Assembly (NCBI GenBank): GCA_016869215.1
Contig: VGEP01000013.1
Span: 1-64,000, forward strand
DNA: 64,000 nt
Source: Alphaproteobacteria bacterium
GTDB taxonomy: Bacteria > Pseudomonadota > Alphaproteobacteria > Rhizobiales > Xanthobacteraceae
Direction of reading: 5' to 3'
Below, one piece after another: positions 11,520 to 61,240 of this stretch (the first letter of the stretch is position 1; each line of letters begins with the position of its first letter). The notes beneath the pieces were generated by a model. The model did not search any database. It was given only the letters and a program-made list of their open reading frames with translations, and was not told the DNA's origin. The position numbers were made by a program, and so were the translations under genes.

Positions 11520-11698
11520 GAACGCCTCCCATCTCCGTAAACGGGCAAATGCTAGCAGTGAAGCGCGGCGAATGCTACTAATAGTTGCAGCGCCCAGGCG
11601 GCGGCCCGAGCCGACGCCACGATGGTCCGTGCTGAATTCGCCGTCACACATTCACCCCATCGGCATCGATAATCCCCCGTGTTTCGACGGAGCGATGA

Positions 11699-12406: not shown

Positions 12407-12410
12407 GGCG

Positions 12411-20243: not shown

Positions 20244-21755
<1,512 letters not shown>

Positions 21756-21810
21756 CCCTGTTGCGGGTCACGCCACCGTGATCAAAGCGGCGGCGTTTAC
21801 TCTTAATTCC

Positions 21811-21830
21811 AAGTCGCGTGGACGCGACTT
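21811..21830 (+). terminator. Rho-independent terminator after the response regulator
   Basis: AAGTCGCG and CGCGACTT form a perfect 8-base stem with a TGGA tetraloop, followed by TGTTT. It lies 56 bases after the response regulator stop. Confidence 0.7.
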
Positions 21831-21910
21831 TGTTTAGCTGAAAAAGTCCCCATTCCATCGGCGGTATCGCGTCATTTGCGTCCGGCGCGAATGGATTGGG
21901 AGACTCGACA

Positions 21911-38343: not shown

Positions 38344-38353
38344 GATTTCGGCC

Positions 38354-39337: not shown

Positions 39338-39509
39338 GGCCGCCCTTCGGCGGGGACTTCGGCTGCGCCATGCGACGGCGTGACCGGGATCGCAGGTTGA
39401 CCCCGCGCTTTCATACTCGCTACCATCCCGCCGCACCAACAAAGGCGATCGGTCATCGAGCCGGCGCGAGTGCGGCGCAACGCGCGCCGCTGCCTTCAGG
39501 GAGGACACC

Positions 39510-40484: not shown

Positions 40485-40503
40485 GTTACAAGGGGAGTCA
40501 TCG

Positions 40504-41487: not shown

Positions 41488-41558
41488 GACCCAGCCCCGC
41501 CGCATGTGCCGCCGCCACGCGGCGGGGAAAGTGTGCTTATGAGCCTGCGTCCCGGCCC

Positions 41559-42005
41559 ATGACGATCCGCGCGGACCACGTCGCCGGCGGCGCCCTGATC
41601 GCCTTTGGCGTTCTGGTGTTCGCCATCAGCGCCGACCTGCCGTTCGGCACCGTGTCCGCGCCCGGCGCGGGCATGATGCCGAAGCTGACGGCGGGCCTGA
41701 TGATGCTGTTCGCCGCCATCATCTTCATCACCGGTAAGCAGAGCGCGCCCGCGTCGTCCATCGACTGGAGCGATCGCGGGCATGCGCTGCTGCTGGTGGT
41801 TATCACCGCCATCGCAACCGTGATCTATACGACGCTCGGCTTCATCATCACCATGACGCTGCTGGTGTTCAGCCTGCTGGTGGTGGTCGAGCGAAAGAAG
41901 ATTTTGCCCGCAGCAACCTATGCGGTCGGACTGACGCTCTTCGCCTACTGGCTGTTCGGAATGGCGCTCAAGGCACCGCTCGAACGCGGGCTGCTCTGGT
42001 TCTAG
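41559..42005 (+). CDS. tctB: Tripartite tricarboxylate transporter small membrane subunit TctB
   Basis: 148 aa with four hydrophobic helices and a short N-terminal basic start, the normal TctB pattern (GTVSAPGAGMMPKLTAGLMM). It stabilises the large channel TctA. It lies between the two receptor genes and tctA, with a 3-base gap to tctA. Confidence 0.88.
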   Translation: MTIRADHVAGGALIAFGVLVFAISADLPFGTVSAPGAGMMPKLTAGLMMLFAAIIFITGKQSAPASSIDWSDRGHALLLVVITAIATVIYTTLGFIITMTLLVFSLLVVVERKKILPAATYAVGLTLFAYWLFGMALKAPLERGLLWF

Positions 42006-42008
42006 TTC

Positions 42009-43541: not shown

Positions 43542-43624
43542 CGGCCGGGCGCCTCCGGGCATTGCGGACGGTACGTCCAGAGCCGATATTCTACTGAACG
43601 CGCGACCGAACCGGGGAGCGAGCC

Positions 43625-44458
43625 ATGCAGTTCGTCGCCGAACGCCCAGCGACCGAAACCATCCGCGCCAAGATGAACTACATCGTCGACACCGGCGTCC
43701 CGCCGGTGCGCTACATCGACTGGCCGGAGATGGCCGACAAGGAAATCCCGCCGACCTACGAGTTGCGCGAGATGGCGGTGCGCAACGGCCGGCCGCTGCG
43801 CGACACGTTCGACCTCGACACCCACGGCTTCGTGTTCGTCGACCACCGCACGGCAATGAAGGACTTCACCGACGAGTCCGAGCGCAAGCGCGTTTATGAC
43901 CCAGAGGTGGCCGCGCTGATCAGGAAGCACTCCGGCGCGTCCGAGGTGCTTGTGTTCGATCACACGATCCGCATCGGCGACGAGGCCGCGCAGAAGGCCG
44001 GCGCACGGCCGCCGGTGAAGGGCGTGCATAACGACTACACCGAGAGCTCCGCTCCGGTGCGCCTGCGCGAGATCGTCGGCGACGCGGAAGCCGAGCGCCG
44101 CATGAAGAAGCGCTGGGCGATCATCCAGGTCTGGCGGCCGATCCGCGGCACGGTGCTGACCGACCCGCTCGGCATCTGCGACGGCCGCACCATCCCGCAG
44201 GAGGGATTCATCCTGGTGCAGCGCCGCTACAAGTACCGCACCGGCGAGGTGTACCACATCGCGCATAACCGCGAGCACGTCTGGTACTGGTTTCCGAAGA
44301 TGCAGCGCCACGAGGCACTGGTGTTCAAAGTGTTCGACACCGACCCGAGCGTGCCGACGCGCTTCACGGCGCATTCGGCGTTCGACGATCCCGGCGCCGC
44401 GCCCGACGCGCCGCCGCGCGAAAGCATCGAGACGCGCACGTTCGCGTTCTGGGATTGA
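43625..44458 (+). CDS. CmcJ/NvfI-family non-haem oxygenase-like protein
   Basis: 277 aa of the family that holds CmcJ (cephamycin pathway), NvfI and gibberellin-like oxygenases in fungi. The likely iron ligands are His and Asp in VHNDYTESSAP and a later His in FTAHSAFDDP; VWRPIRGTVLTDPLGICD is typical. It should oxidise or otherwise modify an organic acid using Fe(II). It is the last gene of the plus-strand catabolic run, 83 bases after tctA. Confidence 0.75.
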   Translation: MQFVAERPATETIRAKMNYIVDTGVPPVRYIDWPEMADKEIPPTYELREMAVRNGRPLRDTFDLDTHGFVFVDHRTAMKDFTDESERKRVYDPEVAALIRKHSGASEVLVFDHTIRIGDEAAQKAGARPPVKGVHNDYTESSAPVRLREIVGDAEAERRMKKRWAIIQVWRPIRGTVLTDPLGICDGRTIPQEGFILVQRRYKYRTGEVYHIAHNREHVWYWFPKMQRHEALVFKVFDTDPSVPTRFTAHSAFDDPGAAPDAPPRESIETRTFAFWD

Positions 44459-46950: not shown

Positions 46951-48036
46951 TCAGGACATGCGCCGGTAGGCATAGGGTTCGTCCGCGGTCTGCTGCGCCA
47001 GGGCTGCGACTTTTTGGTGGTGCGGCGACAGGTGACAGACCGGATCGGTGGCCCGCGCATCGCCTGTCAGCGCATAGGCCTGGCAACGGCAGCCGCCGAA
47101 GTCGACCTCGCGCCGGTCGCAGCTTCGGCACGGGTCGGGCAGAAAATCGGTGCCTCGGAACGCATTGAAGGCCGGTGACGACGTCCAGATTTCCGACAGC
47201 GAACGATCGCGCACGTTCCAGAACTCGATCCCCGGAATGGTTTCGGCGGCATGGCACGGCAATACGCGCCCGGTCGGCGTGACGTTGAGCGAACGCCGGC
47301 CCCAGCCGCCGACGCAGGGTTTGGGAAAGCGCGCATGATAGTCCGGCACCACGGCGTCGATGACGATGCGGCCCCTGTGCTTTTCCCGCAGCGCCTCGAC
47401 CTCCAAGACCGCACGGTCGACCTGTTTTCGCTCCGGCATCAGCGCGGCGCGGTTCTTCAGCGCCCAGCCGTAGTACTGCACATGCGCGATTTCGATCCGC
47501 GCGGCATTGAGCTTCAGCGCCAGATCGACCATCGCGCCAATGCGTTCAATGTTGGCGCGATGCACCACGAGGTTGACCGTCAACGGCAGCCCGAGCCGCA
47601 CCGCCTCCGCCGCGAGCGCCAGCTTGCGCTGGAACGCGCCGCGATAGCCGGCGATATGGTCCGCCGACACCGCGTCCGAGTCCTGGATCGAGACCTGCAC
47701 ATGGTCGAGGCCGGCCTCCCAAAGGTCGCGCATGGTGCGCGTGATGATGCCGACGCCCGAGGTGATGAGGTTGGTGTAGAGCCCAGCCTCGCGCGCGTGC
47801 GCCGCGATGTCCACCAGATCGCGGCGCGCGCCGGGCTCGCCGCCGGACAGATGCACCTGCAACACGCCGAGGGCGGCGGCTTCCTTAAACACCCGCGCCC
47901 AGGTCGCGGCATCGAGTTCGTCGTCGCGCGGTTCGAGCGCCAGCGGATTGGAACAATACGGGCAGCCCAGCGGACAGCGGTGCGTCAGCTCGGCGAGCAG
48001 TCCGATGGGCGTGTGCAACGGTTGGGCCTGCGCCAC
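46951..48036 (-). CDS. pqqE: PQQ biosynthesis radical SAM enzyme PqqE
   Basis: 361 aa. The radical-SAM cluster motif CPLGCPYC lies near the N-terminus, and a SPASM domain with many cysteines near the end ([33 protein letters not shown]). PqqE links Glu and Tyr of the PqqA peptide by a C-C bond, together with the chaperone PqqD. GTG start one base after the pqqD stop. PqqA itself is not seen in the window. Confidence 0.95.
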
Positions 48037-48037
48037 A

Positions 48038-48325
48038 CTAGAACTCCAGAAGCCGCTTCTCCGCCAGCCCAGCCAGCAGCGCCGTCACGTCGGAAGCGAC
48101 GCGCTCACGCGGCGCGTTGAACGTCCTGGCCAGATCGTCGACGATCTCGGTCAGGGTCGCCTCGCCGGTGCAGCGCCGCAGCACCTCATAGGCGATGGCG
48201 TCGGCCTTGAAAATGCGCTCGGGCGCCAGCAGCACCCAGCCGCCGTGCGCCTCGCTGTTTGTGAGCCGCACGCCGCGCGGCAGGCGCGGCCTGGAATCGG
48301 GCGGGATTTGTGCGGGAGCGGTCAT
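48038..48325 (-). CDS. pqqD: PQQ biosynthesis peptide chaperone PqqD
   Basis: 95 aa, the normal size. PqqD pattern: [20 protein letters not shown], then [20 protein letters not shown]. It binds the PqqA peptide and presents it to PqqE. The ATG overlaps the pqqC stop as ATGA. Confidence 0.94.
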
Positions 48326-49053
48326 TTGTCCTCAGGTATGAACGCTCCGGGAGGCACGTGTCCCGGATCGACGTATGCGTGGTGCAGCGCGTCGCACATC
48401 GCCCAAAGCACGCCGCACTTGAATTCCAGCGCCGCGAGCACCGCCTGCTGCTGCTCGGGCGTGCGCGCATTGGCCTTGCAATAGGACAAGGCGAAGTCGG
48501 AATCGCGCTTGGCCTGCGGCGGCCGTTTGTCGAAATAGGCCAGCGTCTCGCGGGTGACAAAGGAATAATTGGCGAGCATCCCTTCGACGCGCTCGCCGAT
48601 GATCTGCGGCGAGAACAGCTCGGTCAGCGAAGACGCGATGGCTTCCAGCAGGGTCTTTTCGCGCACGAACCGCACATAGGCATCGACCGCAAACCGCGTC
48701 GCCGGCAGAAGCCCACGCAGCGAAGTCACGTAGGCGCTATCGAGCCCGAGCCCGTCGGTGAGTCGGAGCCAGCGCGCAATGCCGCCGTCATCGGGGCCCT
48801 CGCCGTCGTGGTCAACCAAGCGCGAGCGCCATTCGCGGCGGACCGCGGAATCGTCGCAACGCGCGATCAGGCCCGCGTCCTTGATCGGGATGCTTGCCTG
48901 GTAATAGTAGCGATTGAGTGCCCAGGCCTGGACCTGGCCCTTGGTGCATTGCCCGCCGTGCAGGAGCCTGTGGAACGGGTGCAGCCGATGATAACGGCGC
49001 GCGCCGATGTCGCGGAGCGCGGCTTCCAGTTCGTCGGGCGTCATCAGCTTCAC
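48322..49053 (-). CDS. pqqC: Pyrroloquinoline-quinone synthase PqqC
   Basis: 243 aa, all-helical PqqC: RRYHRLHPFHRLLHGGQCTK, WALNRYYYQASIPIKDAG and ETLAYFDKRPPQAKRDSDFA are family blocks. It performs the final ring closure and eight-electron oxidation to PQQ with O2. GTG at 49053 overlaps the pqqB stop; ATG at 49044 is an alternative start. It is followed by pqqD and pqqE. Confidence 0.95.
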   Translation of the reverse strand: MKLMTPDELEAALRDIGARRYHRLHPFHRLLHGGQCTKGQVQAWALNRYYYQASIPIKDAGLIARCDDSAVRREWRSRLVDHDGEGPDDGGIARWLRLTDGLGLDSAYVTSLRGLLPATRFAVDAYVRFVREKTLLEAIASSLTELFSPQIIGERVEGMLANYSFVTRETLAYFDKRPPQAKRDSDFALSYCKANARTPEQQQAVLAALEFKCGVLWAMCDALHHAYVDPGHVPPGAFIPEDK

Positions 49054-49844
49054 AGCACGATCTCCATGCCGTCGAACGCCACCTCCCAGCCAGCGGCCTC
49101 GACGCGGACGCGTTCGGGCGAGCCGTCGACCAGTATGGGATTGGTGTTGTTGATGTGCACGAAGATGCGCCGCGCGGAAAGCCCCGCGAGCGCCGTAATC
49201 GAGCCACCCTCGCTATCGATCGGCATGTGGCCCATGCGGCGGCCGGTCTTCTCGCCGGTGCCGGTCCGGACCATCTCGTCGTCGGTGAAAAGCGTGCCGT
49301 CGAACAGGATCGCGTCGGCGCGATTGAGCCGCTCGCGCAGCGCGGGCGTCATGGCGGCGCAGCCCGGCACGTAGGCGAGCCGCACCTTTCCGTCCGTGAT
49401 CTCCACGCCGACGTTGGCTCCGGTCTCGCTTGCGGTCTCGGGATCGTCGCCTTCGAGATAGAGCGGCACCTTTCCAGGCACCATAAACAATTCGGCCTCA
49501 AGGCCTCCTTCGAGGCCGATTTTCGCGCCCGGCACGGCCGCACGCCGCAAAACCACATCGGGCGCGAGCGCGGTGAACATCGGGTTGTCCGCGACGGCAG
49601 CGAGCGTCGACGCTGTCGCGATCAGCGCAAACGGCGATCGCTCCCGCAAGCTGAGCAGACCGGCCGTCTGGTCGATTTCCGCTCCGGTGAGCAGCACCGC
49701 GGCGATCGGGCTGCCGCGCCGCCCGCCCGACGGGCGAAGCGCCGCCGTTGCCTGAATCTGCGCGCGCAGATCGGGCGACGCGTTGAGCAGCGTCCCCCGC
49801 GCTCTGGGGCACGCGCACGCGCATCGCCGAACTGTTCGGCGCAC
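49050..49844 (-). CDS. pqqB: PqqB lacking its N-terminus (probably broken)
   Basis: The frame matches PqqB from LLNASPDLRAQIQ onward: IAAVLLTGAEIDQTAGLLSL, FMVPGKVPLYLEG, VAYVPGCAAM-like region, and IFVHINNTNPIL to the end. A full PqqB (about 300 aa) has some 45-50 residues before this, with a Gly-rich loop and a C-x-C-x2-C segment. These are absent; homology stops near 49793. Upstream of that, the frame reads antisense through a methyltransferase fragment, so the apparent start at 49844 is not a real N-terminus. The gene is truncated by rearrangement or an assembly join. Confidence 0.8.
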   Translation of the reverse strand: MRRTVRRCACACPRARGTLLNASPDLRAQIQATAALRPSGGRRGSPIAAVLLTGAEIDQTAGLLSLRERSPFALIATASTLAAVADNPMFTALAPDVVLRRAAVPGAKIGLEGGLEAELFMVPGKVPLYLEGDDPETASETGANVGVEITDGKVRLAYVPGCAAMTPALRERLNRADAILFDGTLFTDDEMVRTGTGEKTGRRMGHMPIDSEGGSITALAGLSARRIFVHINNTNPILVDGSPERVRVEAAGWEVAFDGMEIVL

Positions 49845-50198: not shown

Positions 50199-51032
50199 CT
50201 ACAACCTGATCTCCCCCAGGCTCACGCTCTTGCCGAGCGTGGCATCGACCGTGCGACTACGGCCAAATGCGGAAATCTCGATTGTGTAGCGTCCGGACTC
50301 TGGAATGAGCTTGTCGAACTTGAAGTCGCCGTAGTTGTCGGTGAGCGCGGTTGCGACTTCGGCGCCGTCCTTCAGGAGCCGCGCCCGCGCGCCTTCCACG
50401 CAGTCGACGGCGCCGTTCGCCTCCGCAGCCACGGAGCCTGCAATGAAGCATTTCGAATAGCGCCAAAGATTTTTGTAATAGACACGCGGCCTGGTGCCGA
50501 GCTCGGGCTTCATCGTTTCAAGCTGCTCGTCGCGCGCGAGCCGCGCCATCTCGGCGTCCTCGACCTTGATGGCGCGCATCGCCCCGGTCGGACAGGCCTG
50601 ATGGCCGCGGGTCTTGTCCCAGCCCTGGTCGATGAGGTGCGCGTCGAAGGGCCAGGCCTGCGGCAATTGCAGTTCCTCGTTCCACCACACGTGCCCGTAG
50701 GGGCAGGCATCGACCAGATCCTTGCGGCCCTTGGCCTTCGCCGGATCGAAGATCACGATGCCGTCGTCGCGCTTTCGCACCGCACCTTTGCCTTTCTCGA
50801 CGCAGGGTGCGTTGTCGCAGTGATTGCACGTTACCGGCACGTAGGCGATGTCGATGGTCGGGGCCTGGCCGCGCTCGTTCTGAAGAATGTCGATCCAGCG
50901 GTGCCCGTGACGCGGCATCGGCGCGGAGACGCCCGGCCAATCGTTGCCGACATATTCGTCCATGGCCGAGAGAGTGCAGAGCTGGCAATTGGTACACTCG
51001 GCAACGTCGACGATGAGGTTCCATTTTGACAT
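50199..51032 (-). CDS. Iron-sulfur subunit of pyrogallol transhydroxylase/resorcinol hydroxylase-type enzyme
   Basis: 277 aa. Ferredoxin-type cysteines: CTNCQLC, CNHCDNAPC, ACPYG, ACPTGA, enough for three [4Fe-4S] clusters. The last about 80 residues (CVEGARARLLKDGAEVATAL, TDNYGDFKFDKLIPESGRYT) form a transthyretin/Cna-B-like beta domain. This same domain order and size is that of the small subunit of Pelobacter pyrogallol-phloroglucinol transhydroxylase (about 275 aa). No signal peptide. It starts 12 bases after the large-subunit stop; a TTG start overlapping that gene is possible. It carries electrons to or from the molybdenum subunit. Confidence 0.85.
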   Translation of the reverse strand: MSKWNLIVDVAECTNCQLCTLSAMDEYVGNDWPGVSAPMPRHGHRWIDILQNERGQAPTIDIAYVPVTCNHCDNAPCVEKGKGAVRKRDDGIVIFDPAKAKGRKDLVDACPYGHVWWNEELQLPQAWPFDAHLIDQGWDKTRGHQACPTGAMRAIKVEDAEMARLARDEQLETMKPELGTRPRVYYKNLWRYSKCFIAGSVAAEANGAVDCVEGARARLLKDGAEVATALTDNYGDFKFDKLIPESGRYTIEISAFGRSRTVDATLGKSVSLGEIRL

Positions 51033-51044
51033 GCGGTCACTCAA

Positions 51045-54000
51045 TCACTTGGCCGGCACCAGTTCCGCTTCCTTCAGTGTGCGCCGGACCTCGCGATCCT
51101 GCTCCATCGCGGCGAACGCCTCCGACACGTGCTCGGGGCGTCCATCCCACAATTCGACCTGCACCAGTGAGTTTGCGCCGGCGAGAGAATGCGTGCTCTT
51201 GGTCTGCGTCTTGTGCGGCGTAAGCAGATTGAGACATCCGCCGCGGTCGACCGACCTGCCGGGCTCGCCCAGCGGCGCATAGACTGCCGACGACTCGTAG
51301 CCGTGGCAAACTCCGCGCACCAGCCGCTCGGTCGGCAGCGCCGCGCAGATCACCGCGCCGCGCTCGTTGTAGACCTTTACCAGGTCGTGCTTCTTGATGC
51401 CGCGTTCGGCCGCGTCCTGCGGATTGAGCCGGATCACCCAGTAGTACCAGTCTCCGACCTTCACGCGATGGTCGGCGATGTTGTTGAGGAATGAGCTCTT
51501 GCCGTCGCCCTGAGTGTGGAACGAATACTTGGAATGCGGCGTGAGCAGTTGCAGCGGATAGCGCCCGAACTCGGGCGAGCCAGGGCCTTCCCAGGACGGC
51601 TCGTACTTGACGATCGGCGGGCGCTCCGGGTCCTTGTAACGCTTCAGGCTGTTGCATTCGAATTCGAGCTTGCCGGACTGCGTCTGCAGCCCGCTCAGGA
51701 ATTCCTTGTAGTCGGATGGCAGCGGCTGCGCCTCCGGCACGTCCTTTTTGCGGCCTTCCCAGAACCAGCGGAAGGACACCGGCGCGCGCAACTTCTCCTT
51801 CTCCGCCGGAATGACGAAGTAGCCGCGCTTGAGCAGCTTGCGGAACGAGATGACCTTGGGCAGGTCGGAGGCGAGATAGGTGCGGTACACCCAGTCGATC
51901 TCGTTGATGCCCTCGTTGAAATAGTTGGCGAGGCCCAGCCGCTTGCAGATTTCGGTGAAAATCCAGTAGTCGGACTTCGACTCGCCCAGCGGCTCGATGG
52001 CCTTCGACTGCAGGATCACCACGCGGTGATTGAGCTGCTGCTGGCCATGATGGCCGTAGCCGCCGAGCGCCGCCCATTCGGAAATGTCGACGCGTTCGAA
52101 GTTGGTGCAGGCCGGCAAGATCACGTCGGCGAACTTGGCCTCGCCCTCGAACCAGATCGACTGGTTGACCACGAATTCCAGATTCTCCGACTGGTACATC
52201 CGCACATGGCGGTTGGAGTTGTTCATGGTGCCGAGAATCGAGCCGCCGTACTTGTACATCATGCGTACCGGCGAATGGCCGGGCGCCGGATACATGAATT
52301 TGCCGAACTGGTGCTCGATAGACTTGCCGACCCAGCGGTAGCCCTCGGCCTTGCCCTCGTAGATCGCCTCCGGCAGCCAGATGCGCGGAATCTGCTGGCC
52401 GTTGGAGTTCATGGTCGGAAGCTGCGGCATGCGCTGATACAGCGCGACCGGGATCGCGGTGTTCTCCAGGTCGCCCGACATGCCGCCTTCGGAGTAGCCG
52501 GGGAAATAGAACTGGAAGTCGACTGGGCAGCCCCATTGCAGGTTGCCCATGTTGCAGCCGGGCTTGCCGAGGCCCTGCATGGCCGAGAGGCACACCATCA
52601 CGCGCGCCCACTGGATGCCGGTCTGGTTGCGGCAGGCGCCGCCGTGGCCGTTGCCCCAGCCACCGGGCGCGAGATAGACGCGCTTCTTTCCCCACTCGCG
52701 GGCGAGCGCGCGCACGTCCTTGGCCGGAACGCCGGTTTCCTTCTCCTGCCATTCCGGCGTCTTCGGGATGCCGTCCTCTTCGCCAAGCAGGTACGCCTTC
52801 CAGGAGTCGAAGCCGACGGTGTGGGTCTTCACGTAGTCCTTGTCGTAGAGCCCTTCCTTGATCCACACGTACGCGATCGCCATCGCCATCGCGGGCGAAG
52901 TAGTCGGCTTCGGTGCAAACCACTTGCCCGGCACAAACTGCGCCGATGAGTTGTAGAACGGATCGACGTGGACGACTTTGATGCCGAGCTTCGGGTTCTT
53001 CAGCCACTGCCGCCGCACGGTGCCTTCCTGCGCACCGTAGGAGCCCGACGTGGTGTCGGGATCGGCGGCCCAGAAAACGACCATGTCGCAGTTCTGCAGC
53101 AGGTCCTCGACCGTGCCGTAGGTCTCGGACTGACCGACGCGCAGCGTGTGACCCCAGTGATGCACTGCGCCCCAGTACCATCCCTCCCATGAGTCGGGAT
53201 TGTGGTGCACGCGGGTCATACCGACGGCGTTGATGAAGCGGAACAGCGCCGAGAGATAGTAGCCGATATTGCCCCAGGTGTGGTGCGAACCGTGCGAGAC
53301 GGCGATGCTGCCCGGGCCGTGCTCCCGCTTCTGGCGCTTGATCTCGTCGCCGACGATGGTCAGCGCTTCTTCCCATGAAATGCGGACGTAACCCGACTTG
53401 CCGCGGTTCTGCGGATTGCGCGCGCCGTGCGGATCGAAATCGACGCGCTTCATCGGATAGAGCAGCCGGTCCGGCGAATAGACGATGGACTTGGCATTTT
53501 GACCATGAGGAGCAAGAGTCGTCTTGCGCGGCGGCGTCAGCCGCTCGCCGCGCGCCTCGATGGTCCAGGACGCGCCGTCGTCCTCGTTCAGTTCGATCGG
53601 CGTCATGCGCACGATCTTGCCGTCCTTGACATGGACGAACACCGGCCCGCCGTTGGTCATGTTGCAGTAGCGCATCGAGCCGTCGGGCATCGGCGTGCCG
53701 AACTTCAGGCCGACGGTCTGGCTCATCATCACAGTCTGCGCGAACCAGTTAGCGAGACCGTCGTCGCCTTCGACGGTGAGCGCGAATTCCTTTTGCGCGT
53801 TGATCTGGTCGAGCCAGTTGATCGGCGGCGTGAGCAGCCGAGCTCCAAGTGCAGCATTCTTGAACGCCACGGTGATATCGGCGTCTTTCCGCACGCCCGT
53901 ACCGGACGAAATTCGCCCGTCCTGGATTCGGAACCAGCGGCCGATCTCCTCGTCGCGGGCGATGAACTGCGCGGTAAGATTCTTCTCCTTCAGCCGCGCG

Positions 54001-54089
54001 CGATAGGCCGGGTGCCGCCAGGCCTGGAATTTCATCAGCAGCGACAGGCCGAACAGGATCAGGGAGAGCTTGAGGCTCGCAAAGGACAT
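51045..54089 (-). CDS. Molybdopterin subunit of transhydroxylase/resorcinol hydroxylase type, with extra N-terminal domain
   Basis: 1014 aa, DMSO-reductase family. No N-terminal Fe-S cysteine motif is present, as in transhydroxylase. His269 (GSHHTW), Tyr277, and Asp299-Ser300-Trp301 ([10 protein letters not shown]) have the same spacing that I recall for the transhydroxylase active-site residues His144, Tyr152, Asp174, Ser175 (Mo ligand) and Trp176. Before this core are about 135 additional residues: a hydrophobic stretch ([16 protein letters not shown]) and an SCP2-like region. GGGAG precedes ATG 54089. It should add a hydroxyl to a phenolic ring such as resorcinol; the substrate is inferred. 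Confidence 0.85.
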
Positions 54090-54187
54090 GGGGCGGCTCC
54101 CTGGCGGTCGTTTCATCCGATTCCTATGGGAAATCGCCCAACGAATCTAGGCACCGCCGCGTGTCCCGGATGCGTGCCAGCGTTTGG

Positions 54188-55549
54188 CTACACCAGCATC
54201 CGCACCGGGCTTTCCATCAGCGCCTTGAATGCGGCGAGCAGCTCCGCGCCAAGCGCGCCGTCGACCACGCGATGGTCGCAGGACAGCGTCGCCGTCATCT
54301 GGCTCTCGAACTTCACCGAGCCGTCGGCCGCCTCGACCGGGCGGCGCTGCGACGCGCCGACGGCGAGGATGGTCGCGTGCGGCGGATTGATGATCGCGGA
54401 GAACTCGCGCACGCCATACATGCCGAGGTTGGAGATCGCCGACGCGCCGCCCTGATATTCCGCGGGCTTCAGCTTCTTGTCTTTGGCGCGCGCGGCGAGC
54501 TCTTTCATCTCGTTGGAGATCGCCGACAGCGACTTGCTCTCCGCGTTGCGGATCACCGGCGTCAGCAACCCGCCCTCGATCGCCACCGCGACGCCGACAT
54601 CCGACGACTTGAAACGCAGGATGCGGTCGGAAGCCCACACCGCGTTCGCTGCCGGGACGCGTTGCAGCGCCAGCGCCAGAGCCTTGATGACGAAATCGTT
54701 GACCGAGAGCTTGTAGGCGGGCTCGCCGCCGCTCTCTTGACGATTCTTGGGCGCGCCCGCGTTGGCCTCCTCGCGCAGCTTGAGCAGCGCGTCCATCGTC
54801 ACGTCGGCCGTGAGATAGAAATGCGGGACGGTCTGTTTGGCCTCGACCAGCCGCCGCGCGATGGTGGCGCGCATGCCGTCGAGCGGCACCTCTTCGAAGG
54901 CGGCACCCTGATAGAGCGCCTTCACCTGCTCGGCGGACATGCCGGCCGGCGCGGCCGGCGCCGCACGGCCTGCGCCGCTCGACAACGCGGATTCAACGTC
55001 GGCCGCGACGATCCGCCCGCGCGGGCCTGAGCCGCGAACCCTGGAGAGATCGATGCCGTTCTCGCCGGCGAGCCTGCGCGCCAGGGGCGTCGCAGTCGCA
55101 CCGCCCGCCTGCCGCGCCGGGCCGAAGTTTCGCGCCGGCGTGCGGACCTCGAAGAAGGGATCGAGATCGCCATAGGCGAAGCTTGCGGCGCTTCGCTCGT
55201 CGCCGCGCGAGCGCGGACGCGATTGTGCAGGCGCTGCCGCCCTTGCGGGAGCGGCCGCAGGCTGCGCCTGAGGGGCTGCGCTTGCCGCAGCAGCCGGCGC
55301 GCTCGCCGTAGCCCCGCCCGCGCCCGCGATCACCGCGACCACCGCGCCGACCTTGGCCACCTCGCCCACCTGCACGCGGATTTCCGACAGCGTGCCGGCG
55401 GCGATCGACGGCACCTCCATCGACACCTTGTCGGTCTCGATCTCGAACAGGTTGTCGCCCGGCTTGACCGCCGTGCCGGGGGCGACGAACCACTTGGTGA
55501 TCTTGCCCTCGGCGACGGTCTCGCCGAGCTGCGGCATCAGGACGTCCAT
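54188..55549 (-). CDS. 2-oxoacid dehydrogenase complex E2 (lipoyl acyltransferase)
   Basis: 453 aa. One lipoyl domain with lipoyl-Lys41 (EIETDKVSMEV), an Ala/Pro linker, an E1/E3-binding domain (ATPLARRLAGENGIDL, RVRGSGPRGRI) and the acyltransferase core ending with CDHRVVDGALGAEL, the catalytic His. ATG 55549 has AGAGGG upstream. In this operon the E2 is separated from the E1 genes by an aldehyde dehydrogenase gene and a small cassette. It may belong to a hydroxybenzoquinone-cleaving complex rather than to plain pyruvate dehydrogenase. No E3 gene is visible. Confidence 0.9.
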   Translation of the reverse strand: MDVLMPQLGETVAEGKITKWFVAPGTAVKPGDNLFEIETDKVSMEVPSIAAGTLSEIRVQVGEVAKVGAVVAVIAGAGGATASAPAAAASAAPQAQPAAAPARAAAPAQSRPRSRGDERSAASFAYGDLDPFFEVRTPARNFGPARQAGGATATPLARRLAGENGIDLSRVRGSGPRGRIVAADVESALSSGAGRAAPAAPAGMSAEQVKALYQGAAFEEVPLDGMRATIARRLVEAKQTVPHFYLTADVTMDALLKLREEANAGAPKNRQESGGEPAYKLSVNDFVIKALALALQRVPAANAVWASDRILRFKSSDVGVAVAIEGGLLTPVIRNAESKSLSAISNEMKELAARAKDKKLKPAEYQGGASAISNLGMYGVREFSAIINPPHATILAVGASQRRPVEAADGSVKFESQMTATLSCDHRVVDGALGAELLAAFKALMESPVRMLV

Positions 55550-55561
55550 TCCAACCCTCTC

Positions 55562-55706
55562 GTGTCCCGGGCGAGCCATTAGCGCGTTTACGCGCGTCTT
55601 CGACGCGCTATGGCGAGACCCGGGACCCCGGTTTCATTCAAGCGGCACGTAAGCTGGGTCCCGGGTCAGCGGCGCATCACTTTGTGACGCGCCGCGCCCG
55701 GGACAC
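55562..55706. repeat. Nested palindromic element with perfect 12-bp terminal inverted repeats
   Basis: GTGTCCCGGGCG (55562-55573) and CGCCCGGGACAC (55695-55706) are perfect inverted ends of a 145-base element. Inside are a perfect 12-base pair GACCCGGGACCC (55617-55628)/GGGTCCCGGGTC (55656-55667), a hairpin with TAGCGCGT/ACGCGCTA arms, and GCGGCGC..GCGCCGC (55669-55695) with inner TCAC/GTGA. It fits a REP/MITE-type element and fills the gap between the aldehyde dehydrogenase gene and E2. Confidence 0.75.
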
Positions 55707-55715
55707 GAATCCGTC

Positions 55716-57173
55716 TCACCAATTCGTGGCGACGTACTGCGTCTCCAGGAATTCCATCAGCCCCTCGTGCGCGCCCTCGCGCCCGATGCCCGACTGCTTC
55801 ATGCCGCCGAACGGCGCCGCCGGATCGGAAACCAGCCCGCGGTTCAGGCCGATCATGCCGAAGTCGAGCTTCTCGGACACGCGCAGGCCGCGGCCGAGGT
55901 CCTTGGTGTAGAGATACGCGACCAGCCCGTACTCGGTGTCGTTGGCGCGGCGGATGACTTCCGACTCGTCGGTGAAGGTTTGCAGCGACGCCACCGGTCC
56001 GAAGATTTCCTCGTTCAGCATCTTGGCGTTGTCGGGCACGTTCGACAGCACGGTCGCCGGATAGAAGTAGCCCGTGCCTTCCGGCTTCTTGCCGCCGGTA
56101 AGGATTTTCGCGCCCTTGCTCACCGCGTCGTCGACAAGCTCGATCACCTTGTCGAGACCTTCCTGGTTGACCAGCGGACCGAGCGCCACGCCGTCGTCGA
56201 GGCCGTTGCCCATCTTCAGCGCCGCCATCTTGGCAGTGAGCTTTTTGGTGAATTCGTCCTGTACCTTTTCGTGCACGTAGAAGCGGTTGGCCGCCGTGCA
56301 GGCCTCGCCCATGTTGCGCATCTTGGCGATCATCGCGCCGTCGATCGCCGCATCGATGTCGGCGTCCTCGAACACGATGAACGGCGCGTTGCCGCCCAGT
56401 TCCATCGCGGTGTTGAGCACCTGATCTGCGGCGCTGTGCAGGAGCTTGCGGCCGACTTCCGTGGAGCCGGTGAACGACACCACGCGCACGCGCGGATCGT
56501 GCAGCATCGCGTCCACGACCGGGCCGGAGCGGCGCGACGGCAGCACGTTGACGACGCCCGCCGGCACGCCGGCCTCTTCCAGGATCGGCATCAGCGCCAG
56601 CATCGTGAGCGGCGTCTCGGACGCGGGCTTCAGGATCACCGGGCAGCCGGCGGCGAGCGCGGGCCCGATCTTGCGGGTCGCCATCGCGGCGGGGAAGTTC
56701 CACGGCGTCACCAGCACGGCGAGACCCGCCGGCTTGTGATGCACGAACATGCGCGCCCCCGAGGCCGGCGCCATGCCGTTCTGGCCGAGGTTGCGCACGC
56801 CCTCCTCCGCGTTCCAGCGGAAGAACTCGGCGGCATAGGCCACCTCGCCGCGCGAATCCGACAGCGCCTTGCCGTTCTCGATGGTGATCAGCTTTGCGAG
56901 CCGCTCGGCATCGCGCATGATCAGCTCGTAGGCCTTGCGGAGAATCTCACCGCGCTCGCGCGGCTTCTTCGCGGCCCAAGGCGCGAAGGCGGCTTGCGCG
57001 GCGTCGAGCGCGGCCTTGGCGTCGTCGACACTGGCGCTGGCGACGTCGGCGATCTTGCGCTCGGTCGCGGGATCGATCACGTCGAACCGCGCGCCGTCGG
57101 AGGATTTTTTCCACTTTCCGCCGATCCAGAGATCGGTTGGCACGTTGGCGAGCAGGTTGTCGTATGCGGCCAT
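55716..57173 (-). CDS. gabD: NAD(P)-dependent succinate-semialdehyde dehydrogenase-type aldehyde dehydrogenase
   Basis: 485 aa. The class-typical blocks are VTPWNFPAAMATRKIGPALA (cofactor site), SFTGSTEVGRKLL, the Glu in MELGGNAPFIVFEDADID and the nucleophile Cys in MGEACTAANRFYVHE. It is closest in pattern to SSADH/GabD. It oxidises a semialdehyde to the acid. Within the hydroxylase/E1/E2 operon it probably handles a C4-type aldehyde arising from ring cleavage. It starts 7 bases after the last cassette gene. Confidence 0.88.
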   Translation of the reverse strand: MAAYDNLLANVPTDLWIGGKWKKSSDGARFDVIDPATERKIADVASASVDDAKAALDAAQAAFAPWAAKKPRERGEILRKAYELIMRDAERLAKLITIENGKALSDSRGEVAYAAEFFRWNAEEGVRNLGQNGMAPASGARMFVHHKPAGLAVLVTPWNFPAAMATRKIGPALAAGCPVILKPASETPLTMLALMPILEEAGVPAGVVNVLPSRRSGPVVDAMLHDPRVRVVSFTGSTEVGRKLLHSAADQVLNTAMELGGNAPFIVFEDADIDAAIDGAMIAKMRNMGEACTAANRFYVHEKVQDEFTKKLTAKMAALKMGNGLDDGVALGPLVNQEGLDKVIELVDDAVSKGAKILTGGKKPEGTGYFYPATVLSNVPDNAKMLNEEIFGPVASLQTFTDESEVIRRANDTEYGLVAYLYTKDLGRGLRVSEKLDFGMIGLNRGLVSDPAAPFGGMKQSGIGREGAHEGLMEFLETQYVATNW

Positions 57174-57180
57174 GAGGCAC

Positions 57181-57417
57181 CTATTCTGCTGTCACGTAGT
57201 TTTCAAGATATTCTGCAGTTTTCGGCCATTTCTGATTGCGCATCCATCTGATGAGTTCTTTGTTCTTCTCATATTGAAAATTCGACTCACATGGCTTCAG
57301 AAGGCGCTTAATCTCTCGGCGTACATAGTCATCAGGCTTGTCATCACTAACGAGTTCCCTGATGTACTGGCGTCCCATTTCATCAAGGCACCGACCCATA
57401 ACTTTCTCCACGGTCAT
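57181..57417 (-). CDS. Small hypothetical protein of the low-GC cassette
   Basis: 78 aa, charged and helical (MTVEKVMGRCLDEMGRQYIR to WPKTAEYLENYVTAE), without membrane segment or signal peptide. No family was recognised. The base composition is clearly lower in GC than the neighbours: one 60-base line counted by eye gave 38 percent, against about 63 percent in the adjacent aldehyde dehydrogenase gene. It is the third gene of the cassette, 17 bases after the Cas2/SinR-like gene. Confidence 0.6.
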   Translation of the reverse strand: MTVEKVMGRCLDEMGRQYIRELVSDDKPDDYVRREIKRLLKPCESNFQYEKNKELIRWMRNQKWPKTAEYLENYVTAE

Positions 57418-57434
57418 CCAGGCGCTACCTGGGA

Positions 57435-57713
57435 TTACTCAGCATCAACCCGCTTTCGAATCCACTCCCAGGCGTCCTTAGGGAGAAGTCCCTGATAGGG
57501 CCTATTAAGGTACGTGACCATCAATCGGCCTCGACCCTGAATATGCGGTTTCAAAGCTTCTACGACTTCGTTGGGGGTCTTATCGGTATAGATGAGCCAC
57601 ATAGGCTTCATGTAATGCCACCAACGGCCTTGCTCCTTGATCGCCTCGAACAGCGCCTTGGTATCTCCAACTGAGCGGGAGAGGTCGACCACCACAAGCA
57701 AGATGCGCTTCAT
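57435..57713 (-). CDS. Cas2/SinR-like ferredoxin-fold small protein
   Basis: 92 aa. It begins MKRILLVVVDLSRS, then TKALFEAIKEQGRWWHYMKP, MWLIYTDKTPNEVVEALKPH and RGRLMVTYLNRP. The order strand-helix-strand-(WLI.TD)-helix-strand matches the SinR-family proteins that share the Cas2/VapD fold. A possible catalytic Asp sits at the end of the first strand (VVDL). No cas1 or array is present. Its ATG overlaps the upstream gene stop (ATGA). The role may be nucleic-acid or effector related, but is unknown. Confidence 0.6.
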   Translation of the reverse strand: MKRILLVVVDLSRSVGDTKALFEAIKEQGRWWHYMKPMWLIYTDKTPNEVVEALKPHIQGRGRLMVTYLNRPYQGLLPKDAWEWIRKRVDAE

Positions 57714-58126
57714 TGGTTCGCGACCTCTGCTGGTGGAAGAGTCTCAAGCTGTTCTGAATCGATCTCCTTTCCCTCCTCACCCAAAGGTCCGACCCTGGCC
57801 TTAATTCGCTGCACTACACCCTTGAATTTTTTGCGGCCTCTAAACCATCTAATGCCGCAATAAAGGGCAACGAGGAACCCAACGACATCAACTAGGAGGA
57901 AGGAGTAGTAGATACGGTCAGACTGAATATCGACCGTTAAAAGTACAACCAAAAGTGAAAGCCCAACCGAAAGCCCTGCCACCCCGAACGTCAGGTCGTC
58001 GCTGATGCTGCCCGTTTCCCGCTCTAGTTCGTCAAGCTCGTGTTCGCTTACATCAAAGATGACAAGCGAATCGAGCGCATGACGCTCAACAATAATTTCC
58101 TCCCTCCTATGCCGTACCTTAGGCAT
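57710..58126 (-). CDS. Two-transmembrane protein of the low-GC cassette
   Basis: 138 aa. A soluble N-terminal segment (MPKVRHRREEIIVERHALDS) is followed by two helices at about 45-65 (LTFGVAGLSVGLSLLVVLLT) and 72-94 (YYSFLLVDVVGFLVALYCGI), then a charged tail. This resembles a widespread unnamed 2-TM family seen in genomic islands, sometimes beside SinR-like genes. Its ATG shares one base with the E1beta stop (TAATG). Low GC. First gene of the cassette; possibly a membrane effector. Confidence 0.6.
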   Translation of the reverse strand: MPKVRHRREEIIVERHALDSLVIFDVSEHELDELERETGSISDDLTFGVAGLSVGLSLLVVLLTVDIQSDRIYYSFLLVDVVGFLVALYCGIRWFRGRKKFKGVVQRIKARVGPLGEEGKEIDSEQLETLPPAEVANQ

Positions 58127-59106
58127 TAGCTGTTCAACGTCTTGCTCACCCGCTCCACGATCCGGTCGACGTTCGGCAGGATCGCGTCCTCCAGCACGTC
58201 GGCGGACGGCAGCGGGCAGTGCGGCGTGGTGATGCGGACCAGCGGGCCGTCGAGATCGTAGAACGCCTCGTCGGCGATGATCGACATGATCTCCGCGCCC
58301 CAGCCGCACAGCCGCGGATTCTCCTCGACGGAAAACGCGCGGTGGGTCTTGGCGACCGAGCCGAGAATGGTCTGGGTGTCGAGCGGCACGAGGGACCGCA
58401 CGTCGATCACCTCGCAGTCGATGCCGTGCTCGGCGGCGAGCTTTTCCGCCGCGGCGAGCGCACGCGGCACCATCAAAGCGAGCGCGAGGATTGTGGCGTC
58501 CTTGCCGGGCCGCAGGATTTTCGCGGTGCCGAGCTTGTCGACGATCTCGCCGTCCGGCACCTCGCCCTTGGTCGGGTAGAGCGACTTGTGCTCCAGGAAA
58601 ATCACCGGGTCAGGGTCTCTGACCGAGGCGGCCAAGAGCCCGATCACGTCCGCAGGACTCGACGGCGCGACCACCTTGAGCCCCGGAATCATCATGCACC
58701 AGTTCTCGACGCTCTGAGAATGCTGCGCGCCGAAGCGCGAGCCCGCACCGTTGCCGGTGCGGACCACCAACGGGCACTTGGTCTGCCCGTTGGTCATGTA
58801 GCGGCTCTTCGGAAACTCATTGGCGATGTAGTCGAAGCACACCGCGATGAAGTCCGAGAACATGATCTCGGCGATCGGCTTCAGGCCGGTCATCGCCGCG
58901 CCCATGGCGGCGCCGAGGATCGCCTGTTCGGATATGGGGGTGTCGCGGACGCGCAGCGGGCCGAATTGCTCGTAGAGGCCGACGGTCGCCTTGAACACGC
59001 CGCCGGCCTTGGCGATGTCCTCGCCAAGGAACACGACGTCCGGGTCGCGCTCCATCTCCTGTGCGATGCCGCGGATCACCGCATCGCGATAGGTCAGTTC
59101 CGCCAT
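58126..59106 (-). CDS. 2-oxoacid dehydrogenase E1 component, beta subunit
   Basis: 326 aa: MAELTYRDAVIRGIAQEMER, VFLGEDIAKAGGVFKATVGL, RVRDTPISEQAILGAAMGAA and RTGNGAGSRFGAQHSQSVEN are the E1beta blocks. It pairs with E1alpha to bind thiamine diphosphate. ATG 59106 lies inside the E1alpha gene end (13-base overlap). Directly after its stop begins the low-GC cassette. The type is acetoin/pyruvate dehydrogenase-like. Confidence 0.92.
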   Translation of the reverse strand: MAELTYRDAVIRGIAQEMERDPDVVFLGEDIAKAGGVFKATVGLYEQFGPLRVRDTPISEQAILGAAMGAAMTGLKPIAEIMFSDFIAVCFDYIANEFPKSRYMTNGQTKCPLVVRTGNGAGSRFGAQHSQSVENWCMMIPGLKVVAPSSPADVIGLLAASVRDPDPVIFLEHKSLYPTKGEVPDGEIVDKLGTAKILRPGKDATILALALMVPRALAAAEKLAAEHGIDCEVIDVRSLVPLDTQTILGSVAKTHRAFSVEENPRLCGWGAEIMSIIADEAFYDLDGPLVRITTPHCPLPSADVLEDAILPNVDRIVERVSKTLNS

Positions 59107-60116
59107 GCCCAGCCTCCATCCGCGTAGACGTCGGTCGTGAGGATATCCAGCGGCGGGATCGGTGCGGCCTTGCACTTCTCGGTCGCGTCGTCGACCGTGG
59201 CCTTCACGCCGCTGACGATCTTCTCGATCTGTGCGTCGGCAATACCGAACTGCTTCAGCCGCTCGCGATAAATCTTGATCGGGTCGCGCTCCTTCCAGCG
59301 CTCCAGCTCGCCCTCGGGGCGGTACTTCGCGGGGTCTGCGCGGGAGTGGCCGCTGTGGCGGTAGGTCAGGCACTCGATCAGCGACGGGCCGCCGCCGGCG
59401 CGCGCCTTGTCGTAGGCCTTCATCGCCTCGCGATAGACCGCGTCGGCATCGTTGCCGTCGATCACGATCCGCTCCAGCCCATAGGCCGAGGCGCGGTCGG
59501 CCGCCGGATGCGGCACCGCCGTCACGTCGCCGATCGGCGTGTATTCCATGTAGAAATTGTTCTCGCAGACGAAGATCACCGGCAGCTTCCAGACCGCGGC
59601 AAAGTTCAGCGCTTCATGGAACGCGCCAATGTTCGTCGTGCCGTCGCCGAAGAAGCAGACCGAGACGTCCTTCTGGCCCTTGTATTGCGCCCGCCAGGCG
59701 GCACCGCAGGCGATCGGCAGGTGCGCGCCGATGATGGCATAGGAGCCCATCACGCCGTGTTCCTCGGAGGTGAGGTGCATCGAGCCGCCCTTGCCGCGCA
59801 TCAGGCCGTTGTCTCGGCCCATCAACTCGCCCAGCACCTTCTCGACCGGCACGCCGCGGGCGAGCGTATGGGCGTGGCCCCGGTAAGTGCAGAACGACAG
59901 GTCGCCGGGCTTCATGGCGACGGCGAAGCCCGCGGCCACCGCCTCCTGGCCCAGAGACAAATGGCTCGTGCCTTTCACCAGATTTTGCAGAAAAAGGTCA
60001 TAGGCGCGCTGTTCGGCCTCCCGGATGACGACCTGGGTTTCGAACAGCTTGAGCCGGACGTCCTCCCCGATATCGTCGTTTAGGGCGGTATTCGCTGGCC
60101 GGGCAACGTCGTTCAT
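59094..60116 (-). CDS. 2-oxoacid dehydrogenase E1 component, alpha subunit
   Basis: 340 aa. ThDP motif GDGTTNIGAFHEALNFAAVW then NN; YRGHAHTLARGVPVE and RGKGGSMHLTSEEHGVMGSY are E1alpha-specific. It decarboxylates a 2-oxoacid and passes the acyl group to E2. First gene of the leftward operon E1alpha-E1beta-cassette-gabD-E2-hydroxylase L-S. The promoter should lie in 60117-60172. In Azoarcus a PDH-like set of this sort is tied to anaerobic resorcinol breakdown. Confidence 0.92.
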   Translation of the reverse strand: MNDVARPANTALNDDIGEDVRLKLFETQVVIREAEQRAYDLFLQNLVKGTSHLSLGQEAVAAGFAVAMKPGDLSFCTYRGHAHTLARGVPVEKVLGELMGRDNGLMRGKGGSMHLTSEEHGVMGSYAIIGAHLPIACGAAWRAQYKGQKDVSVCFFGDGTTNIGAFHEALNFAAVWKLPVIFVCENNFYMEYTPIGDVTAVPHPAADRASAYGLERIVIDGNDADAVYREAMKAYDKARAGGGPSLIECLTYRHSGHSRADPAKYRPEGELERWKERDPIKIYRERLKQFGIADAQIEKIVSGVKATVDDATEKCKAAPIPPLDILTTDVYADGGWAWRN

Positions 60117-60172: not shown

Positions 60173-61090
60173 TCAACGGGGCGCCACCGGGGCAACCGCG
60201 CCGCGCACCTTCTGTTCGCGGTAAAGGAGATAAAGGCCGGACGCCACGACGATCCCGGCGCCGATCAAGGTCCAGCGGTTGGGCACGTCGTTGAACACCA
60301 GATAGCCGAGCGCCGTCGCCCAGATCAGCTGGGTGTACATGAACGGCGACAAGGTCGACGCCGGCGTCCGGCGGTGGGCCAGGATCAGCAGGAAGTGGCC
60401 GAGCGTGCCGAGCGCGCCGACCCCGACCAGCATGACAAAATCGAGCGGGGAAGGCGTCGTCCAGACGAACGGCAGCACCGGCAGCATGGTCAGGAGGCCG
60501 ACCAGATTGGCGTAGAACAGCGTCGTCTCGCTCGACTCGTGGCGCATCGCCATGCGGGTTGCGATGGCATAGGCGGCATAGAAGATCGCGGCCCCGACCG
60601 AGATCAGCGCCGCCCATTGCATCCCTCCGAGCCCCGGCCGGATCACCACCAGCACGCCCGCGAAGCCAACCCCGATCGCCGTCCAGCGCCGCCAACCGAT
60701 CCATTCGCCGAGGATCGGGCCCGCAACCGCCGCCACCAGGAACGGCGTCGCGAACAGGATCGCCAGCGCCTCGTCGAGCTGCAGATAGCGGAACGCGAAA
60801 AAATTGCAGATCGTCGTGGACACCAGGAACAGGCCGCGCACGAGTTGGAGCCCCGGCCGGGCCGTGCGCAGCATCCCCGGCCGGAGGATCGGATTGGAGA
60901 AGATCAGCGCCACGAAGAACGCCGTGACAAAGCGCATCGCGACCACTTGCAAGGTGTCGAGATGACCGCCGAGATACTTCGCTGTGGCGTCGAGCACGGC
61001 AAACAGCAGCACCGCGACGGTCATCAGGCCAATGCCGATCAGGCGCTGGCGGCGCTGCTCGTATTGCTGAATTTGGGTGGGGTCGGTCAT
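60173..61090 (-). CDS. EamA/DMT-family transporter
   Basis: 305 aa with ten helices in two EamA repeats; GILMTVAVLLFAVLDATAKY-like start (GIGLMTVAVLLFAVLDATAK), APGAR-type ends, and LILAHRRTPASTLSPFMYTQ in the second repeat are typical. It probably exports a metabolite or amino acid. ATG 61090 was chosen. It lies upstream of the E1 genes, same strand, 56 bases apart, and could share their transcript. Confidence 0.87.
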   Translation of the reverse strand: MTDPTQIQQYEQRRQRLIGIGLMTVAVLLFAVLDATAKYLGGHLDTLQVVAMRFVTAFFVALIFSNPILRPGMLRTARPGLQLVRGLFLVSTTICNFFAFRYLQLDEALAILFATPFLVAAVAGPILGEWIGWRRWTAIGVGFAGVLVVIRPGLGGMQWAALISVGAAIFYAAYAIATRMAMRHESSETTLFYANLVGLLTMLPVLPFVWTTPSPLDFVMLVGVGALGTLGHFLLILAHRRTPASTLSPFMYTQLIWATALGYLVFNDVPNRWTLIGAGIVVASGLYLLYREQKVRGAVAPVAPR

Positions 61091-61240
61091 GGCGGGCCAA
61101 CCTAAAGCAAATTTCATGTGCATTGAGCGAAATGTTGCGGCGACCGGACTTGTCGGGAACGGCGGCGAATTGCTTCAAGCAGGCCGACGCCGCCGGAACC
61201 GGCGCGATGCCGGACTTTCGGCGTATCCGGGTTGCCATCG

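Follow-up and report, generated by a model that had tools for sequence, protein, structure and literature searches.

The window analyzed here is a 64,000-nucleotide stretch of an Alphaproteobacteria bacterium of the family Xanthobacteraceae (contig VGEP01000013.1, positions 1 to 64,000), and we investigated a leftward run of genes in it that ends in a two-subunit molybdenum (Mo) enzyme, denoted RhLS (large subunit RhL, iron-sulfur (Fe-S) small subunit RhS). Open reading frames (ORFs) and Pfam matches bear out the gene order given in the original prediction, which had been drawn from the sequence alone. All on the minus strand, E1alpha (59094..60116; PF00676, 254 bits) and E1beta (58126..59106; PF02779 and PF02780) of a thiamine pyrophosphate (TPP)-dependent dehydrogenase are followed by an insert of three small ORFs (57174..58125; 952 bp, GC 50%), an aldehyde dehydrogenase (ALDH, 55716..57173; PF00171, 543 bits), an E2 dihydrolipoamide acyltransferase with lipoyl, E3-binding and catalytic domains (54188..55579), RhL (51045..54116; PF21423, PF00384 and PF01568; matched to PDB 4v4c_A) and RhS (50199..51044; matched to 4v4c_B). 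The ALDH is succinate-semialdehyde-dehydrogenase-like, with a score against TIGR01780 (564 bits) that lies under the cut-off of 646. The intergenic gaps are 136 bp between ALDH and E2 and 71 bp between E2 and RhL, with none between RhL and RhS. RhL has 1023 residues when read from the ATG at 54116 and 1014 from the Met at 54089; RhS runs from a TTG at 51044, and the ATG at 51032 is a likely start.

RhL groups with AthL, the large subunit of pyrogallol-phloroglucinol transhydroxylase. PF21423, the AthL-specific first domain, scored 93.6 bits (cut-off 27) and RhL is its sole match in the window's own genome; the closest solved relative is AthL (4v4c_A, 946 bits, E = 2e-283), followed by trimethylamine N-oxide reductase at 243 bits. 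These two results rule out placement in another branch of the dimethyl sulfoxide reductases, which would have refuted the original prediction, and a match at this E value is no product of chance. That prediction had also picked out a His, a Tyr and an Asp-Ser-Trp triplet (H269, Y277 and D299-S300-W301, numbered from Met 54089) for their transhydroxylase-like spacing, and rightly: as H278, Y286 and D308-S309-W310 (numbered from ATG 54116) they align with H144, Y152 and D174-S175-W176 of AthL, and Y541 and Y687 of RhL correspond to AthL Y404 and Y560. These AthL residues, which we take to be catalytic, with the serine as presumed Mo ligand, are conserved in 95-97 of the 97 rows of the large-subunit alignment, the window included (126 sequences reduced to 97 rows by merging copies more than 97% alike; the tree has 98 rows with AthL). 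One aberrant, long-branched row (L126) accounts for the exceptions that the window's clade shows at several of the active-site columns. The serine ligand S309 and the His/Tyr/Asp/Trp set are those of the AthL/RhL branch, and on these sequence grounds RhLS is a predicted oxygen-independent phenol hydroxylase or transhydroxylase of that branch of the MopB superfamily, for which a published survey names the enzymes RhL and PgtL (PMC10100899).

Four positions of the pocket are changed between AthL and RhL: R153 to Y287, W354 to H491, F468 to W595, and C557 to L684, the W354/H491 column being less certain because it lies beside an alignment gap. The commonest letters at these positions are W/F/T/C in a deep clade (8 rows), Y/H/W/T in a clade of beta and Magnetospirillum sequences (9 rows), Y/F/W/S in a plasmid clade (5 rows), and Y/H/W/L in the window's clade (10 rows), in a clade linked to phloroglucinol genes (7 rows) and in the remaining 57 rows, of which 41 have H and 41 have L.

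The first ~147 residues of RhL have no counterpart in AthL, which aligns from residue 148 on, a feature absent from the original prediction. An AlphaFold2 model of this extension (53652..54089, minus strand, residues ~1-146 from Met 54089; 27 aligned sequences; pLDDT 89.7, pTM 0.75) has a helix at residues 3-25 and a mixed alpha/beta domain. Foldseek with this model returned 23 matches at E <= 0.001 (TM by query length 0.33-0.51), comprising alkylsulfatases and related proteins, UbiJ-SCP2, and other SCP2 entries; the alkylsulfatases presumably match through their SCP2-like C-terminal domain. Pfam SCP2 hits to the extension are weak and come from 6 of the 32 members, the best at 0.0038. As modeled, the N-terminal domain of RhL is SCP2-like and lipid-binding-like, and helix and domain together probably hold the enzyme to membrane, lipid or quinone. 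Moorella sulfitireducens carries both kinds of enzyme at one locus (L078, at 10001-12967 and 20309-22825): an RhL that has the N-terminal domain and, adjoining phloroglucinol-type genes, an AthL-like enzyme that lacks it.

RhS is closest among solved structures to AthS (4v4c_B, 260 bits, E = 2.1e-76; next 61 bits), and its C-terminal barrel part aligns with AthS by sequence. Of the small-subunit layout that had been claimed from the sequence, the barrel stands and the Fe-S part holds only in part. We counted C13, C16, C19, C23, C68, C71, C76, C109, C126, C129, C145, and C149 of AthS as Fe-S ligands, leaving C209 outside, and take these twelve cysteines to bind three [4Fe-4S] clusters. RhS keeps eight of them, the losses being C23 to A, C126 to W, C129 to D, and C145 to G, and so departs from the twelve-cysteine small subunit of pyrogallol-phloroglucinol transhydroxylase. 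Among 87 small subunits, 45 (the window included) lack all four of these cysteines, C23 alone survives in 14 and C145 alone in 20, and the full four are present in 8 (L066, L073, L078, L080, L083, L084, L085, L086); in the large-subunit tree, those 8 loci are the ones that branch deeply and fall outside a clade of 88 rows (support 100). With ferredoxin-type ligand swapping, the four cysteines would bind one cluster, and for that reason RhS probably has two clusters, a predicted loss of one [4Fe-4S].

To place RhLS among its relatives, we used the best 80 of at least 539 relatives from a scan, most of the 80 titled as alphaproteobacterial metagenome-assembled genomes (MAGs), together with a survey of 198 genomes of the family. 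With cut-offs of E <= 1e-100 for RhL, E <= 1e-90 for E1alpha, and E <= 1e-100 for dihydrophloroglucinol cyclohydrolase (DPGC), the survey found RhL in 32, E1alpha in 62, and DPGC in 42 of the 198 genomes; in a phylum-wide draw, RhL occurred in the window's own genome only (1/398). DPGC was present in 21 of the 32 RhL genomes vs. 21 of the 166 without RhL (P = 1.6e-9), and E1alpha in 23 of 32 vs. 39 of 166 (P = 2.7e-7), the hydroxylase tracking DPGC somewhat more than E1alpha. E1alpha and DPGC themselves co-occur (P = 1.1e-11). The association between RhL and DPGC is seen both within genomes that have E1alpha (P = 0.0016) and within those that lack it (P = 0.019); that between RhL and E1alpha shows nothing clear within genomes that have DPGC (P = 0.28) and a little within those that lack it (P = 0.037). 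With the window's own genus excluded, P was 7e-6 for DPGC and 1e-4 for E1alpha.

Phloroglucinol-type genes lie near RhL at 9 of the 80 best loci (L013, L015, L039, L066, L073, L078, L080, L084, L085), a count to which truncation contributes because many of the contigs are short. They comprise a PF04199 cyclase (split over two ORFs in L066, with no cyclase match seen in L078), a short-chain dehydrogenase/reductase (SDR), a 3-hydroxyacyl-CoA-dehydrogenase-type gene and a cupin, with BKACE near RhL in L066, L073, L084, and L085. Two SDRs were tested and both matched PDB 5g4k best (243 vs. 187 bits and 170 vs. 141 bits), an entry we take to be phloroglucinol reductase (PGR). In the tree, L013, L015, and L039 fall in a 7-row clade; this clade, the window's clade of 10 rows (support 100) and one of 3 rows join in a 20-row clade (support 97) of unresolved internal order. 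RhL and DPGC lie within 10 kb of each other in four family genomes (G193, G146, G076, G002), and with G076 and G002 counted, DPGC is less than 10 kb from RhL in 5 of the 7 rows of the 7-row clade. The window's own genome has a cluster on another contig (C5) in the same order as L013: 3-hydroxyacyl-CoA dehydrogenase (78%), PGR (74%, and 88% to L015), cupin (67%), DPGC (88%), and, divergently, a decarboxylase (69%) whose nearest enzyme is gamma-resorcylate decarboxylase at 230 bits, ahead of 5-carboxyvanillate decarboxylase at 189. By homology, then, phloroglucinol pathway genes are present in the same organism, as a transhydroxylase would lead one to expect. Pathway enzymes of the PGR, DPGC, and dehydrogenase types are demonstrated for Clostridium scatologenes in a published study (PMC10470551). 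A literature search found no paper joining gamma-resorcylate decarboxylase with phloroglucinol. The window itself holds a PF04199 cyclase (37570-38340) and an amidohydrolase (38354-39334), both rejected as phloroglucinol genes: the cyclase has no DPGC-type match at 1e-10 (3.2e-7 otherwise), the amidohydrolase reaches no more than 23-28% against its counterparts around the RhL genes of relatives and 30% against one from an E1 locus, and the close orthologs are on C5.

Evidence from the neighboring clade and the host points to the phloroglucinol route, and the explanation that we tentatively favor is that RhLS acts as a phenol (trans)hydroxylase whose phloroglucinol-type products are degraded reductively. 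The substrate would be a 1,3-dihydroxy- or 1,2,3-trihydroxybenzene of the resorcinol or pyrogallol type, which a decarboxylase of the amidohydrolase family may supply, and the product phloroglucinol or a closely related polyhydroxybenzene. The reaction would take place at the Mo held by serine S309, with H278, Y286, D308, Y541, and Y687, while the N-terminal helix and SCP2-like domain would dock the enzyme to membrane, lipid or quinone. The product would enter the C5-encoded route through PGR, DPGC and a hydroxyacid dehydrogenase. AthL, which transfers a hydroxyl from tetrahydroxybenzene to pyrogallol, adds it at the ring position meta to two others, and pyrogallol or resorcinol as the substrate would fit this chemistry. 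E1alpha-E1beta-ALDH-E2, which is directly upstream of RhLS in the window's genus, would be a separate catabolic unit in which TPP-dependent C-C cleavage yields an acyl-CoA and an aldehyde that ALDH oxidizes.

Several points weigh against this explanation. With four pocket positions changed from AthL, pyrogallol is not necessarily the substrate, and the Y/H/W/L pocket singles out no phloroglucinol enzyme because it is commonest in the other 57 rows too. The association of RhL with DPGC, like that with E1alpha, comes from Fisher tests on genomes, uncorrected for ancestry and with noise added by MAG incompleteness; 11 of the 32 RhL genomes have no DPGC at the cut-off, and the four genomes in which DPGC is no more than 10 kb from RhL are not independent because all belong to one 7-row clade. 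No phloroglucinol-type genes were found near RhL in the 3-row clade (L011, L157, L160), and BKACE was not seen beside the Xanthobacteraceae clusters or the C5 cluster, the rest of the genome not having been searched. C5 lacks RhLS, and RhLS of the window's clade adjoins E1/ALDH/E2 in the same direction, only 71 bp away. Finally, the C5 decarboxylase could alone make phloroglucinol directly, without RhLS.

The adjacency of RhLS to the E1 operon suggests a different route, close to the original prediction, in which RhLS converts resorcinol or a substituted resorcinol to hydroxyhydroquinone, its oxidation product hydroxybenzoquinone is cleaved by the adjacent E1/E2, and ALDH oxidizes the aldehyde, as in Azoarcus and Thauera. 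In Azoarcus anaerobius, the resorcinol hydroxylase RhL/RhS reportedly works with a hydroxybenzoquinone-cleaving complex; our literature search found no paper on resorcinol hydroxylase with hydroxybenzoquinone. The tight co-directional layout is kept in L008, L009, L010 (whose contig begins in E1beta), L070, and L153, and no terminator-like site is listed between E2 and RhL. The same E1 family is linked to RhL in other arrangements as well: G033 (L148) has RhL-RhS, two opposite-strand genes and then E1alpha-E1beta-ALDH-E2, and G039 (L149) has RhLS of another clade (63%), two cupins on the same strand and, further on, E1alpha (80%), E1beta (84%), and E2 (38%). Besides the excess of E1alpha in RhL genomes given above, E1beta (E <= 1e-145) was found in 23 of 49 RhL-bearing genomes vs. 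0 of the 397 other genomes of the phylum draw, many of the 49 being Xanthobacteraceae-type MAGs, among which E1alpha is common anyway (62/198). The 49 genomes account for 50 of the 80 loci, those left out including four with adjacent E1/E2, and a genome with only a partial E1beta match (G597, 1.2e-91) was kept out of the 23. These linkage and co-occurrence figures carry no correction for common descent or habitat. The host has narG (2206 bits), which makes nitrate respiration possible, and the gamma-resorcylate-decarboxylase-like gene on C5 could supply resorcinol. As the original prediction had required, the window's E1/E2 set is additional to a second set of the pyruvate dehydrogenase (PDH) type and not the genome's only PDH: contig C15 carries a separate E1alpha (360.6 bits, PF00676), a lipoyl-bearing E1beta, and an E2 56% to that of the window.

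The wider distribution of the E1 operon argues against this resorcinol route. E1alpha-E1beta-ALDH-E2 is a conserved operon of its own, separable from RhLS: across the 198 genomes, E1alpha occurs without RhL in 39, both occur in 23, and RhL occurs without E1alpha in 9. At the E1alpha loci of 18 genomes without RhL, E1alpha, E1beta, and E2 are present in all 18, ALDH in 15, and a 2-hydroxyacid dehydrogenase gene nearby in 10; an M24 hydrolase and a tartronate-semialdehyde-reductase-like gene are further companions of the operon. A close E1/E2 set is found at 4 of the 80 best relatives' loci (L008, L009, L010, L070) and is wanting at 76, an absence that is partly truncation because many of the relatives' contigs are short. 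RhLS lies between E2 and pqqB in the window, L008, L070, and L153; in the same-genus genome G055 (L167), where RhL finds no match, E2 and pqqB are immediate neighbors and RhLS is missing. IclR genes stand just before RhL in L008, L018, L148, L151, L157, L160, and others, which suggests that RhLS may carry its own regulator or be its own unit. Given DPGC, E1alpha adds nothing clear, and no hydroxyhydroquinone dehydrogenase gene was recognized in the operon. Hydroxylase and E1/E2 are thus not kept as one unit in the manner of Azoarcus. What survives of the original proposal is the recurring linkage (L148, L149) and the co-occurrence; its single conserved operon does not, the E1 operon being widespread without the hydroxylase. 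On balance we consider the hydroxybenzoquinone route a serious if less likely alternative.

The companions of more distant E1 operons differ in kind. At the beta-, gamma-, and most Rhodospirillales-type loci fetched, an M24-type hydrolase, E1alpha, E1beta, E2, and a gene of the 3-hydroxyisobutyrate dehydrogenase (HIBADH) type usually form a module whose E2 is more distant (28-35%) and none of whose genes lies beside RhL. Such a module recurs at L198-L208. The DddP model gave 112 bits (cut-off 600) on the one M24-type hydrolase tested, and the HIBADH-type gene of L148 scored best, under the cut-off, as tartronate-semialdehyde reductase.

RhLS and the E1 operon could also be chance neighbors at the pqq locus, neither helping the other and RhLS acting on something else. 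The G055 site between E2 and pqqB, which has no RhLS, fits this, as do the 6 of 32 RhL genomes with neither E1alpha nor DPGC at the cut-offs; co-occurrence of RhLS with both genes and the repeated linkage speak against it, and we regard it as quite improbable. About equally improbable is an aerobic or micro-oxic pathway in which RhLS hydroxylates the ring and dioxygenases of the extradiol (VOC) or cupin type open it. In Burkholderia, Paraburkholderia, Ensifer, and Salipiger, relatives on plasmids (52-57%) have VOC and fumarylacetoacetate-hydrolase genes, most of them with an acyl-CoA synthetase, and two plasmid relatives are without annotation; VOC genes lie near RhL in SAR116 loci, L013, and L015, and cupin pairs beside RhL/RhS in others; and the host has an extradiol-dioxygenase-like gene close to the C5 cluster, with an HpaD score of 84 bits that falls short of the cut-off, and an intradiol-type dioxygenase elsewhere on C5. 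The window's operon, however, has no dioxygenase by Pfam, and because contexts differ by clade, their transfer to the window's clade is weak. An alkylresorcinol reading was dropped, the literature search having given nothing for it.

Other features of the window and of related loci complete the description. An EamA transporter gene (60173..61123, minus strand) adjoins E1alpha in many fetched relatives and is a frequent upstream neighbor of the E1 operon. Downstream of RhS, pqqB (49050..49844, minus strand; TIGR02108, 294.6 bits) is the first gene of a pqq cluster (46951-49844) with pqqE and, between them, an ORF named pqqC-like from its sequence; pqq genes neighbor E2 or RhS in several same-genus loci. 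One of the three insert ORFs has hydrophobic stretches, two that were tested had no PADLOC match to a known defense system, and the E1beta-ALDH gap occupied by the 952-bp insert in the window is 92 bp in L008 and 9 bp in L153. The set at 37570-44458, read rightward, comprises the PF04199 cyclase, the amidohydrolase, whose best match among solved structures is 2f6k, tripartite tricarboxylate transporter genes, and a 277-residue protein without a Pfam match. Five RhL loci (L031, L047, L058, L072, L073) hold a second MopB-family oxidoreductase of ~700-780 residues, 23-26% to RhL.

If this branch feeds the phloroglucinol route, as we tentatively propose, oxygen-free breakdown of polyphenols would extend to many facultative soil and water bacteria. 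The best 80 relatives show an extra domain, clade-specific pockets and neighbors, and loss of small-subunit cysteines outside one deep clade, and comparison of twelve-cysteine with cysteine-poor clades would be a clear test of electron handling in these enzymes. A bolder proposal, which we hold to be doubtful, is that hydroxylases of the proteobacterial branch, with their SCP2-like domain and two-cluster small subunit, dock to the membrane or to quinone and hydroxylate resorcinol-type rings at C5, linking the gamma-resorcylate-decarboxylase-like enzyme to the phloroglucinol route. Phloroglucinol would then arise from gamma-resorcylate-derived resorcinol on an oxygen-independent path unlike the Azoarcus hydroxyhydroquinone route or direct ring reduction, and a later fragment would pass to the PDH-like operon.

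Among known systems, the closest likeness is to pyrogallol-phloroglucinol transhydroxylase AthL/AthS of Pelobacter acidigallici (PDB 4v4c), with which RhLS shares both subunits, the seven active-site residues, and the C-terminal part of the small subunit, and from which it differs in its extra N-terminal helix and SCP2-like domain, four pocket changes, and four missing small-subunit cysteines. RhL/RhS of Azoarcus anaerobius, likened here by description, belongs to the same MopB branch according to the survey (PMC10100899) and reportedly has PDH-like E1/E2 nearby; in contrast to that system, the E1 operon here is separable and lacks a recognized hydroxyhydroquinone dehydrogenase. The phloroglucinol cluster of Clostridium scatologenes (PMC10470551) has the same PGR-, DPGC-, and dehydrogenase-type genes that we find on C5 and beside RhL relatives; here, unlike there, RhLS is on another contig and no BKACE is seen beside the C5 cluster.

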